Of a DNA stretch of 7,738 nt, positions 4,213 to 6,906 are shown piece after piece (within the stretch, counting starts at the first letter, position 1; each line of letters begins with the position of its first letter). The position numbers were made by a program, and so were the translations under genes. This DNA is from Oscillospiraceae bacterium. GTDB taxonomy: Bacteria > Bacillota > Clostridia > Oscillospirales > Ruminococcaceae. Location: contig JAGAKC010000184.1 of the NCBI GenBank assembly GCA_017848155.1, forward strand, positions 1 through 7,738, written 5' to 3'. Under the pieces are notes generated by a model. The model worked only from the letters and a program-made list of their open reading frames with translations, made no database searches and was not told where the DNA came from.

Positions 4213-4216
4213 CATA

Positions 4217-4247
4217 TGAAAATGCCCCGTGATATCCTCACGGGGCA
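4217..4247 (-). terminator. Rho-independent terminator of ackA
   Basis: A perfect 10-bp stem is formed by TGCCCCGTGA (4223-4232) and TCACGGGGCA (4238-4247) with a 5-base loop. Read on the minus strand it is followed by TTTTCAT, a short U tract. It lies about 20 bases beyond the ackA stop codon and abuts the nadA terminator, so the two convergent transcripts are insulated. The U tract is modest, but the GC-rich stem is strong. Confidence 0.8.
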
Positions 4248-4267
4248 AAAAGTATCTTTAGTAACGA

Positions 4268-5476
4268 TTACTTGTTAAGACCCTCTACCAGATCACGTGT
4301 ATCACGTGCGATAAGCAGCTCCTCGTTTGTGGGAACTACCCATACCTCTACCTTGGAATCGGGAGCGGAGATCTTAGCCAGCTTGCCGCGCAGACCTGCG
4401 TTAGCGTTCTCGTCGAGCTTGATACCAAGCACCTCCATGTTGCGGCAAACGTCAGCACGCAGATCATCGGAGTTCTCACCGATACCGCCTGTAAACAGAA
4501 CAGCGTCAAGACCGTTCATAGCAGCAGCATAGGAACCGATGTACTTCTTGATCTCATAGCGGAGCATCTCACCTGCAAGGATAGCTCTCTTGTTGCCCTC
4601 AGCGGCAGCAGCGGAGATATCACGGTTATCGCTGGAGATACCGGAGATGCCGAGGAAGCCGGACTTCTTGTTGAGGTAATCGCTTGTTTCGGAGGGTGTC
4701 ATGCCCAGCTTGTTTGCAACGAATGTAACAGCGGAGGGGTCAACACAGCCGGAACGTGTACCCATGATAACACCGTCAAGGGGAGTAAAGCCCATGGATG
4801 TATCAACGGACTTGCCGCCGTCAACAGCAGTGATGGAAGAGCCGTTGCCAAGGTGGCAGGAAACTATCTTGAGGTCCTTGATGTCCTTGCCCATAGCCTC
4901 TGCAAGAGCCATGGAAACGAAACGGTGAGATGTACCGTGGAAGCCGTACTTTCTTACGTGGTACTTCTCATAGCACTCGTAAGGCATACCGAACATGTAA
5001 GCCTTTTCGGGCATCGTCTGGTGGAATGCTGTATCGAATACAACTACCTGAGGAGTTGTTTCGGGAATTACCTTCTTGCATGCCCAGAGAGCCAGTGCGT
5101 GGGGGTGGTTATGTACGGGAGCAAGCTCTGCAAGGTCGTCTATCTTCTGGATTACCTCGTCTGTTACAAGAGTTGTCTTGTCGAATACCTCTGCGCCCTG
5201 CACGATACGGTGACCTACAGCGGATACCTCGCTCATGCTGTCCAGTACCTTAGCGTCGCCTGTTGTAAGTACCTCTACCAGCTTCTCAAAAGCCTCTGTA
5301 TGTGTGGGGAATGTGCAGTCCATATCAACAGTTGCACCTGTGTAAGCGGTGTGCTTGATGTGACCGTCGATACCGATACGGTCGCAGTTACCCTTAGCGA
5401 TAACGCTCTCGTCCTCCATATTGATGAGCTGATACTTCAGCGAGGAGCTGCCTGCATTGATTACCAGAATCTTCAT
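4268..5476 (-). CDS. ackA: Acetate kinase AckA
   Basis: AckA interconverts acetyl phosphate plus ADP with acetate plus ATP, the ATP-yielding step of acetate fermentation in the cytoplasm. The 402-aa length is typical. Residues match those mapped in the Methanosarcina enzyme: Asn7 in NAGSSSLKY, Arg90 in VGHRIVQGAE, His122, Asp148 in FDTAFH, His180 in GFHGTSHRFV, HLGNGSS at 208-214, Arg241 in GTRSG, GGIGEN at 330-335 and Glu385 in NEE. The minus-strand ribosome binding site AAAGGAAAA (complement of 5486-5494) lies ten bases or so before the ATG, and a clear promoter is further upstream. The gene stands alone; phosphotransacetylase (pta), often adjacent, is absent here. Large open frames on the opposite strand within this gene are shadows. 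Confidence 0.98.
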   Translation of the reverse strand: MKILVINAGSSSLKYQLINMEDESVIAKGNCDRIGIDGHIKHTAYTGATVDMDCTFPTHTEAFEKLVEVLTTGDAKVLDSMSEVSAVGHRIVQGAEVFDKTTLVTDEVIQKIDDLAELAPVHNHPHALALWACKKVIPETTPQVVVFDTAFHQTMPEKAYMFGMPYECYEKYHVRKYGFHGTSHRFVSMALAEAMGKDIKDLKIVSCHLGNGSSITAVDGGKSVDTSMGFTPLDGVIMGTRSGCVDPSAVTFVANKLGMTPSETSDYLNKKSGFLGISGISSDNRDISAAAAEGNKRAILAGEMLRYEIKKYIGSYAAAMNGLDAVLFTGGIGENSDDLRADVCRNMEVLGIKLDENANAGLRGKLAKISAPDSKVEVWVVPTNEELLIARDTRDLVEGLNK

Positions 5477-5537
5477 GTTTCAAAATTTTCCTTTCATATT
5501 CTTTCAACCGCTGTATTGCGGAAATAATTCACATAAT

Positions 5538-5566
5538 ATTTTATACCTTTTTCTCTGAAAAATCAA
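5538..5566 (-). promoter_or_regulatory. Sigma-A-type promoter of ackA
   Basis: On the minus strand a -35 box TTGATT (complement of 5561-5566) is followed by a 17-base spacer and a -10 box TAAAAT (complement of 5538-5543). This would give a 5' untranslated region of about 55 bases before the ackA ATG. An overlapping TATAAA is also available with a shorter, 15-base spacer. No operator-like repeat is obvious in the untranslated region. Confidence 0.6.
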
Positions 5567-5627
5567 GTGCTTTAATAAAAAAATATATAATTATGTAAAA
5601 ATTCGTGCGCTTTTCTGTAAAAGACAC

Positions 5628-5656
5628 TTGTAAAGCGAGTTAATTTGTGATATAAT
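5628..5656 (+). promoter_or_regulatory. Strong extended -10 promoter of the structured RNA
   Basis: The -35 box TTGTAA (5628-5633), a 17-base spacer and a perfect -10 box TATAAT (5651-5656) are present, with an extended -10 TG at 5648-5649. Predicted transcription starts at about 5662-5664, right at the first base of the outer stem of the RNA described next. It is arranged divergently from the ackA promoter with 61 bases between the two -35 boxes. Confidence 0.8.
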
Positions 5657-5661
5657 ATAAA

Positions 5662-5823
5662 GTGCGACACAACTGAATAATTTTTTGGGATAAGTATACA
5701 CTTTTATTATGGTAAAAGTGCATGCTCTTTTTTCGTATACTTTTCTCAAAGGATTCGGAAGTTGTGTCGCAGCAATCGGAGTTATGCATTTTTCGGTGCG
5801 TAGCTTCGGCTGCGCACTTTTTT
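5662..5823 (+). ncRNA. Unassigned structured RNA (sRNA or attenuator leader), ~160 nt
   Basis: From the predicted start the transcript can fold into one long rod. The outer stem is 12 perfect bp, TGCGACACAACT (5663-5674) with AGTTGTGTCGCA (5760-5771). Inside it, GAAT (5675-5678) pairs with ATTC (5753-5756) beyond a 3-base bulge. After an internal loop, TTTGGGA (5684-5690) pairs with TCTCAAA (5744-5750) with one G-U, then comes one T-T mismatch. Next, AAGTATAC (5692-5699) pairs with GTATACTT (5735-5742). The apex is ACTTTTA/TAAAAGT (5700-5706/5713-5719) with a 6-base loop. A 15-base strand (5720-5734) stays unpaired on the 3' side. A linker (5772-5795) and a terminator hairpin complete the RNA. 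I see no SRP, tmRNA, RNase P or known riboswitch motif. The rod with a one-sided bubble loosely recalls 6S RNA, but it is shorter. It precedes the gene at 5852 by 28 bases, so a leader role is equally possible. Confidence 0.65.
5796..5823 (+). terminator. Strong rho-independent terminator with UUCG loop
   Basis: A 9-bp stem GTGCGTAGC (5796-5804) pairs with GCTGCGCAC (5809-5817), including one G-U pair, closed by a TTCG tetraloop and followed by six T (5818-5823). It sits between the promoter at 5628 and the ribosome binding site at about 5840, so it either ends a small RNA or controls entry into the downstream genes. Confidence 0.9.
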
Positions 5824-5851
5824 ATTTCATTTTACTTTAGGAGGATAATGT

Positions 5852-6016
5852 ATGAAAGCAAAGAGGATCAGGGCAGTTTTGGGCGCAGGAGTTATTGCTT
5901 GCGCCGGTACAGCGTTTGGAGGGTGTGGAGGAACACCCTTTGATGTAATGTCAACAGCTGAAATAACTTTCAGCGACTATAGCGGACAGGCAAATCAGCA
6001 TCTTAGGGAGGAATAA
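5852..6016 (+). CDS. Small signal-peptide/lipoprotein-like ORF, 54 aa
   Basis: This small open frame has a strong ribosome binding site (AGGAGG, 5839-5844, seven bases before the ATG). The N-terminus MKAKRIRAVLGAGVIACAGT is a basic start followed by a short hydrophobic stretch ending in VIAC (Cys17), and a second candidate FGGC has Cys25. Either could be a lipoprotein cleavage site, though neither lipobox is ideal. The mature part is only about 30-37 residues and ends in a polar tail. It may be a genuine small exported peptide or the remaining N-terminus of a larger lipoprotein. The next gene starts 5 bases after the stop and its ribosome binding site (AGGGAGG, 6005-6011) lies within this ORF, so translation is probably coupled. 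I do not recognise a family. Confidence 0.6.
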   Translation: MKAKRIRAVLGAGVIACAGTAFGGCGGTPFDVMSTAEITFSDYSGQANQHLREE

Positions 6017-6021
6017 TAAAT

Positions 6022-6906
6022 ATGAAGAAAAGACTTTTAAGTATTGCACTTATTTCTTTACTGCTTATCAGTGCGGCAGGGTGCGCAAGCAAACCTGCCG
6101 AAAACGCAGGAACAACTGTCAACGAAGAGCCTGCCGCTTCTACAGAATCCATTAAAGCTAATGAGGGTGGCATTAGTGTGCCGAAGTTTAACGAAAAAAC
6201 CGAAGCAACAACAGCGTCTACTGCAAAGCCTGCCGAACCTGTTGTCGTATCCGACGGAAAGCTTGTTCCTGATTGCCCTGTTAATGTATCTGCCGACATT
6301 CCGTTACAGGAGTTTTACGTTATAAAGCCATGGGAAGAGTTCAACGACGCTACCGAAGATTATTACAACCGTTTTAATGTAACAAACTGCTACATCAAAG
6401 ATGTCCTTGAGTCCAATACGGATGTAATAGACCGTAGCAACGGCTTTAACAATACGCTTAGAAACGATTGCGATTTTAAGTTTGTCGGAGAGTGGTTTGA
6501 AGGACTCTACATGGAAGCGGTTTTTAACGGAAAGCTTGTTGACGGAAGCGGACGCTACGATGAACAGTACAACGTTGTTGGCAGAATAGAGGAAGACGAG
6601 CTGATAGAGATGCCGATAAAGGCGGTTGCGGATAGTTGTGAACAGATACACGACTTTTATGGACTGATTGATAGGTATCTTATCGAGTTTTACGATTGCA
6701 TTTCCATTGGCTCGACTCGTGAAGACGTTGAAGCGATTCTCGGCAAGGGTCATCTCGGTACACATCCCGAGTACACTACCGTAATGTACAACAACGGCAC
6801 TGCTACTATGGTCATCCACTATGAGACCGTAGATAAGGTAATCTCTTTCGACGACGAGAAAACCTACGACACCGTACATTCCATCTACCTTATCAGCAAC
6901 AAATAA
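6022..6906 (+). CDS. Putative lipoprotein with BamE/SmpA-like C-terminal region
   Basis: This 294-aa exported protein has a clear type II signal peptide: MKKR, a hydrophobic core at 5-18 and lipobox AAGC with Cys21 as the lipidated residue. A low-complexity linker rich in Ala, Thr, Glu and Pro (about 22-75) would hold the globular part away from the membrane. Residues 85-220 form an unrecognised acidic and aromatic domain. The end (about 226-292) carries SIGSTREDVEAILGKG, the start pattern of BamE/SmpA-like and related small lipoprotein folds, followed by alternating strands. This resemblance rests on a short motif and does not imply an outer membrane. AGGGAGG at 6005-6011 supports the start. 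No terminator follows, and the next small ORF begins 22 bases on. Confidence 0.88.
   Translation: MKKRLLSIALISLLLISAAGCASKPAENAGTTVNEEPAASTESIKANEGGISVPKFNEKTEATTASTAKPAEPVVVSDGKLVPDCPVNVSADIPLQEFYVIKPWEEFNDATEDYYNRFNVTNCYIKDVLESNTDVIDRSNGFNNTLRNDCDFKFVGEWFEGLYMEAVFNGKLVDGSGRYDEQYNVVGRIEEDELIEMPIKAVADSCEQIHDFYGLIDRYLIEFYDCISIGSTREDVEAILGKGHLGTHPEYTTVMYNNGTATMVIHYETVDKVISFDDEKTYDTVHSIYLISNK

Follow-up and report, generated by a model that had tools for sequence, protein, structure and literature searches.

A widespread rod-shaped leader RNA, predicted to attenuate transcription, precedes genes mostly for predicted exported proteins

The forward strand of the window (the whole stretch of 7,738 nucleotides that was analysed) carries at 5662-5823 what is very probably one copy of a conserved and widespread family of leader RNAs, predicted from their sequences to be transcription attenuators and located before genes whose products are mostly predicted to be exported. 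The leader RNA falls outside every known class tested, and the comparison of its copies indicates that it is under selection as RNA. Among attenuating leader RNAs, a known kind, it is best read as a new, cis-acting and riboswitch-like class, with a regulon made up mainly of surface-protein genes; we infer from a model of rival pairings that the leader would control termination.

The rod, its terminator and the gene behind it

An earlier note on this DNA had proposed a real, structured rod RNA at 5662-5823, and the fold agrees with it base for base: the minimum free energy (MFE) is -66.9 kcal/mol against -33.2 +/- 3.3 for 200 shuffles (z -10.2), none of which was equal or better. The four nested helices and the perfect closing stem of 12 bp were recovered as described, the total being 40 bp and not about 38. 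This outer stem pairs 5663-5674 with 5760-5771 and encloses two interior arms, 5679-5699 and 5735-5755, which form helices of 12 bp (5679-5690/5744-5755) and 8 bp (5692-5699/5735-5742). The rod is capped by a U4/A4 hairpin at 5700-5719 (5700-5707 with 5712-5719, 8 bp), and the 15-nt unpaired bulge seen earlier indeed lies at 5720-5734, GCATGCTCTTTTTTC. A U.A-U triplex of the conserved A4 strand with the U tracts is conceivable. Mostly inside this bulge is the S/B strand (5718-5728, GTGCATGCTCT), which is complementary to a switch strand, X (5776-5790, TCGGAGTTATGCATT), beyond the outer stem; in the window, the S/B strand and 5778-5789 make a duplex of 11 bp. The suggestion that the unpaired strand is the functional face is likely correct, as this strand covaries with X (see below).

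The ends of the RNA are also as first proposed. A promoter-like site at 5628-5656 consists of the -35 hexamer TTGTAA (5628-5633), a 17-nt spacer and an extended -10, TGA-TATAAT (TATAAT at 5651-5656), which places the predicted start at about 5662, at the outer stem. At the other end, an intrinsic terminator hairpin at 5796-5817, GTGCGTAGC-TTCG-GCTGCGCAC (its stem being 5795-5818 in the terminator scan), is followed by a T tract at 5818-5823, and this UUCG hairpin with its T tract is the sole terminator-like site in 5480-6060. Homology across the genus has the same extent, beginning in the promoter region and stopping at the T tract, with sharp alignment ends.

Two features were absent from the earlier note. 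The first is a hairpin that competes with the terminator: X has two alternative partners, the S/B strand and 5795-5809 (the antiterminator), and the terminator is missing from the MFE fold because the hairpin 5776-5790/5795-5809 occupies its 5' arm and loop. The second is a gene right behind the T tract, which ends 15 nt upstream of a Shine-Dalgarno sequence, AGGAGG (5839-5844), and 28 nt upstream of an ATG (5852). This small lipoprotein-like ORF of 54 aa (MKAKRIRAVLGAGVIACAGTAFGGC..., 5852-6016), which has no Pfam match, is the predicted first gene under the leader, and a 294-aa lipoprotein-like gene at 6022-6906 probably belongs to the same operon. By consensus, the window has the layout of an attenuator, with a terminator between promoter-like site and start codon and no second promoter. 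The same arrangement recurs in its own genus: a -10 with at least 5 of 6 matches lies upstream in 89/90 copies, one of nine accepted -35 hexamers was also found in 89/90, and none of the 30 short-gap copies (start codon at most 35 nt from the terminator) has a -10 of 5/6 between the terminator and the start codon or Shine-Dalgarno. The genes behind short-gap copies thus likely depend on read-through.

Two other observations concern this region. In many own-genus copies (L051, L066, L078, L083, L092), the stretch from terminator to Shine-Dalgarno contains another conserved repeat, TTGCGG ... CCGCAA, which is hairpin-like and may add translational control. Near 2440 in L045, the downstream gene begins MKTKKI-stop in an A-run and appears to resume in another frame, seemingly a sequencing error or phase variation.

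Attenuation might instead be mediated by ribosomes translating a leader peptide inside the RNA. ATG codons do occur at 5709, 5722 and 5784 of the window, and 41 of 219 copies have a Shine-Dalgarno sequence before an ATG, GTG or TTG that opens a frame of 8 or more codons. However, Shine-Dalgarno and ATG are combined in just 3/219, the anchored frames are open in only 36, 50 and 52 of the 219 (anchorless copies being counted as not open) and no conserved translated ORF emerged among these 219 copies, leaving this reading highly improbable.

Covariation of the rod and of strand X

To collect copies, 80 larger stretches of the genus were taken and named genomes were scanned with a pattern based on the leader's 3' portion. 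The scan gave 83 loci, in metagenome-assembled genomes (MAGs) labelled Oscillospiraceae, Ruminococcus, Ruminiclostridium, Monoglobus, Clostridia and others, many of them from animal guts. A profile search yielded 179 hits and 144 distinct cores, of which 142 were usable and 126 were left at a cut of 93% identity. Alignment A1 contains 119 of these 126 representatives (omitting L046, L069 (without the hairpin), L074, L086:2807, L151, L173 and L196:7039), and a covariance model, R1, was built from it.

The compensatory changes that the earlier note expected in relatives are present in the outer stem and in both pairings of X. Within A1, the outer stem is predicted in 119/119 copies, with pair types such as GC84/CG16/UA10/AU8 and UA51/CG42/AU14/GC7 (n=119), and 16 of the 22 consensus pairs show double changes; extra pair types over the outer stem and the pseudoknot core were not above shuffles (119/500). 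The U4/A4 hairpin likewise varies in concert (column pair 71-119, CG83/UA24) and belongs to the MFE structure of just 91/119 copies, while each of the 9 pairs of the terminator stem is kept in 114-118/119. In a MAFFT alignment the arms are misaligned, so that RNAalifold did not recover the inner helices, and alignment-free tests of cognate against non-cognate strands took its place for the inner helices and the switch pairings. The interior helix is predicted in 118/119 copies, and cognate arms pair at -22.2 kcal/mol against -8.8 for non-cognate ones, the cognate being the best of 21 in 112/119. Among the nearly invariant segments are GGUAAAA, within the hairpin, and two that follow the outer stem, AAUA and CAAU; these suggest a candidate binding site.

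Strand X shows the same kind of constraint towards both of its partners. The antiterminator, formed by X and the terminator 5' arm plus loop, comprises 12 pairs, with 93.9% of cells paired and double changes in 7 pairs; a thirteenth position (column pair 217-239) pairs in 32/118 and was set aside as an internal mismatch. From 0 to 1 of 500 shuffles scored as high on five measures, and slid controls were 24-52% paired; the one slid by -1 is only 33.7% paired but reaches 19 double-change cells, where the antiterminator has 18. For X and the S/B strand, 93.6% of cells are paired over four core pairs. Distant copies (e.g. L249, L246, L241) have both partners altered together.

Permutations of cognate energies point the same way. 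The set consisted of 90 representatives drawn from the 197 parsed of 219 copies, the other 22/219 being unparsable for B:X. Both B:X (z -9.9) and X:Y (z -9.8) were matched by 0/5000 permutations each, as were their components tested separately (0/5000 each), while the control B:Y, expected to be unpaired, gave z -1.1 and 703/5000. Within the genus, alignment-free comparisons gave -16.05 vs -14.96 for X:Y (31/118 in the best 10%) and -10.9 vs -10.5 for B:X (20/108 in the best 10%), a weak contrast because X is nearly invariant there.

When permutation was restricted to copies of the same genome (84 copies, 14 genomes), which removes genome-level kinship, z was -12.7 for the outer stem, -6.1 for B:X and -5.6 for X:Y, with 0/3000 each. 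This result bears on the idea that the element is a dispersed repeat of the MITE or REP type that happens to contain a promoter. Such a repeat would fit with the inverted repeats, the sharp alignment ends and the high copy number in genomes, but copies within a single genome retain the outer stem, B:X and X:Y through compensatory changes, the copies are divergent (126 of the 142 usable cores survive the 93% cut) and their orientation is tied to a gene, so that we give the repeat reading very little weight.

The two hairpins of the predicted switch are close in energy, with means over 212 copies of -15.4 kcal/mol for the terminator and -13.1 for the antiterminator (-16.4 vs -16.5 in the window), and the MFE structure chooses the antiterminator in 109 copies and the terminator in 103, as expected for a switch. 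A conserved antiterminator, mutually exclusive with the terminator, was thus found, being weak in 19/212 copies.

Distribution of the leader and genes behind its copies

The window genome, a draft that is 77% complete, has 1 copy. In its genus, matches below 1e-10 occur in 26/43 genomes, in several of them many times. With R1, and with the window genome counted each time, matches occur in 34/297 genomes of the family (E <= 1e-3), 118/345 of the order (E <= 1e-4) and 96/391 sampled genomes of the class, likely Clostridia (E <= 1e-5); in a phylum-wide draw of 299 genomes the window genome alone matched, with 0/298 others. Twelve chosen genomes have 27, 17, 14, 12, 11, 10, 9, 7, 4, 1, 1 and 1 copies at E <= 1e-4. 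An exact-pattern search of viral contigs found no copy, none was found on plasmids, and a phage search gave two records from human faeces, the one that was opened being unannotated. A copy at 83% identity lies at MT835845.1:2060-2237 (L294), a human faecal contig deposited as Bacteriophage sp., from which we think it likely that the leader RNA is present in the human gut too.

Placement ties the leader to genes. In the own genus, 79 of 91 copies have room on both sides, and a Shine-Dalgarno sequence with an ORF of at least 100 aa follows within 120 nt in 68/79, against 4/79 on the divergent upstream side and 57/633 at random points. Of these 68 ORFs, 64 are exported-like (having a signal-peptide-like N-terminal stretch by our own hydrophobicity rule), against 33/222 control ORFs. 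Among the 82 downstream proteins scanned with Pfam (82 of 91 rows), LRR_8 occurs in 43 and LRR_5 in 39 (BspA type), and a lipobox-like motif was seen in 25 own-genus downstream proteins.

Outside the own genus, the link with a gene persists and the nature of the gene broadens. At the named loci beyond the own-genus stretches (50 of 89 same-sense hits, omitting 35 own-genus duplicates and 4 upstream tandem members), a gene begins within 150 nt in 45/48 copies with room, and 38 are exported-like. In other genera of the family (52 of 57 hits, omitting 2 on the reverse strand and 3 upstream tandem members), a gene lies downstream in 46/51, with 22/46 exported-like; in the class and order sample (45 of 46 hits), the counts are 34/44 and 21/34. 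This drop in the exported-like share suggests a regulon wider than surface proteins, and exported proteins as sole target were dropped from consideration since other genera showed other genes too. Further Pfam scans, of 43/46 and 69/79 downstream proteins, found LRR_5 in 3/43 and 22/69 and, among the matches listed, SLH, RCC1, Ig-like, GH9, dockerin and LiaF; AbrB/MraZ-like, DUF6364/RHH-like, AMP-binding and unassigned small proteins occur as well.

Some of the small proteins recur. The leader precedes small AbrB/MraZ-like genes at L142:1781-2017, L150:5903-6142 and L199:5891-6130 (L142 and L150 being Monoglobus-labelled MAGs), and small proteins sharing an ECCC-(D/N)EC motif in L205, L230, L266 and L272; the one from L230, the sole one scanned alone, had no Pfam match. 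Proteins of 109 aa that resemble RHH (DUF6364, weak) recur behind the leader in genomes G101 and G194 (L224-L228, L233).

The order promoter, RNA, terminator, gene is also that of type III toxin-antitoxin RNAs (ToxI, CptI), and a module of this kind, in which an RNA antitoxin and a leaky terminator precede a toxin gene, would share its parts with the leader, sometimes including tandem RNAs. However, the genes behind the leader often encode exported LRR, SLH, Ig-like or RCC1 proteins or lipoproteins, there is no Rfam match, and no nuclease toxin appeared among the matches listed (the best 25 of 60, 38 and 50 Pfam families for the 82, 43 and 69 downstream proteins). Of all the readings weighed here, we consider this one the least probable.

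A more serious alternative is a stand-alone, trans-acting sRNA of about 160 nt, whether a 6S-like decoy or an sRNA with a U-rich seed, both raised by the earlier note, with the downstream gene transcribed by leak-through. Near-universal promoter-like sites and well-kept terminator pairs would fit, and a few copies (L047, L262, L282 among them) have no gene close behind. Tandem leader pairs on the same strand occur in L144, L193, L196, L197/L269, L225, L227, L236, L254, L264, L276 and L280; inspection of the sequences upstream in L254 and L264 showed a separate promoter-like site and terminator for each unit, a duplication that a device acting purely in cis could do without. These complete units, together with the copies that have no nearby gene, make a trans-acting sRNA conceivable. 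Yet copies are placed directly before same-strand genes far more often than divergently, a free sRNA would have no need of the covarying antiterminator that rivals the terminator, and some genomes hold many divergent copies (up to 27). As for 6S RNA, which typically has one or two copies per genome and whose models are included in Rfam, the likeness lies in a long rod with an internal unpaired strand and its own promoter and terminator, whereas the leader is multi-copy in many genomes (1 to 27 in the 12 chosen), has no Rfam match at the window and 35 further loci, is tied to downstream genes and has an antiterminator. We find the sRNA reading a poor fit and unlikely, and favour an attenuator acting in cis.

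Relation to known leaders and a possible switch

That the RNA is unassigned, as the earlier note held, was borne out: no Rfam 15 family was found at 5662-5823 even with E = 10 allowed, and at 15 + 20 further loci the gathering threshold returned only tRNAs, none at the element. Elsewhere in the window, on the reverse strand at 4213-4311, sub-threshold hits to PyrG_leader and anti-hemB overlap the hairpin found at the 3' end of ackA and seem fortuitous. A parallel in genomic behaviour is with the c-di-GMP riboswitches of Clostridia (GEMM-I/II), which occur in many copies per genome before unrelated exported and surface proteins and are also represented in Rfam; the leader RNA differs from them in fold and sequence and matches no Rfam model.

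In mechanism, the leader resembles terminator/antiterminator riboswitches such as the crcB and pfl motifs described in PMC2864571: there too, a leader with a conserved folded domain precedes the gene, a terminator just before that gene overlaps a rival structure, and some classes occur in tandem. Unlike these, the leader RNA belongs to no Rfam class, would capture X with a bulged rod and often precedes surface-protein genes and not those of a metabolic pathway. The text consulted from PMC8040213, PMC2864571 and PMC8632094 does not describe the leader RNA, though an earlier, unnamed listing among published motif sets may exist.

A switch of the following kind may be proposed. As RNA polymerase leaves the rod, the rod would fold first, and its unpaired S/B strand would capture X in a pseudoknot; with X captured, the 5' arm of the terminator would be free, the terminator would form and the gene would be off. 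Release of X by a signal, or kinetic escape, would allow X to pair with the terminator 5' arm and loop, which would block the terminator and let polymerase continue into the gene. The signal could be a metabolite, a second messenger or a protein, and either state of the switch could be the favoured one. With so many unrelated genes behind the leader, a global signal seems likelier than the metabolite of one pathway. A more specific proposal, which we regard as a tentative possibility somewhat short of probable, is that the family would be a new riboswitch class of Clostridia, in which a rod aptamer with a strand-capture pseudoknot senses a global signal (e.g. a second messenger) and governs antitermination of BspA-type and other surface-protein repertoires.

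The anatomy of the switch is clear enough for direct tests of the termination model and for a direct search for its signal. If the attenuator reading is true, the family is a widespread unassigned regulatory RNA, found in about a quarter of the sampled class genomes (96/391) and without a match in Rfam 15, and it would define, in the genus of the window, a regulon rich in surface LRR proteins and lipoproteins.
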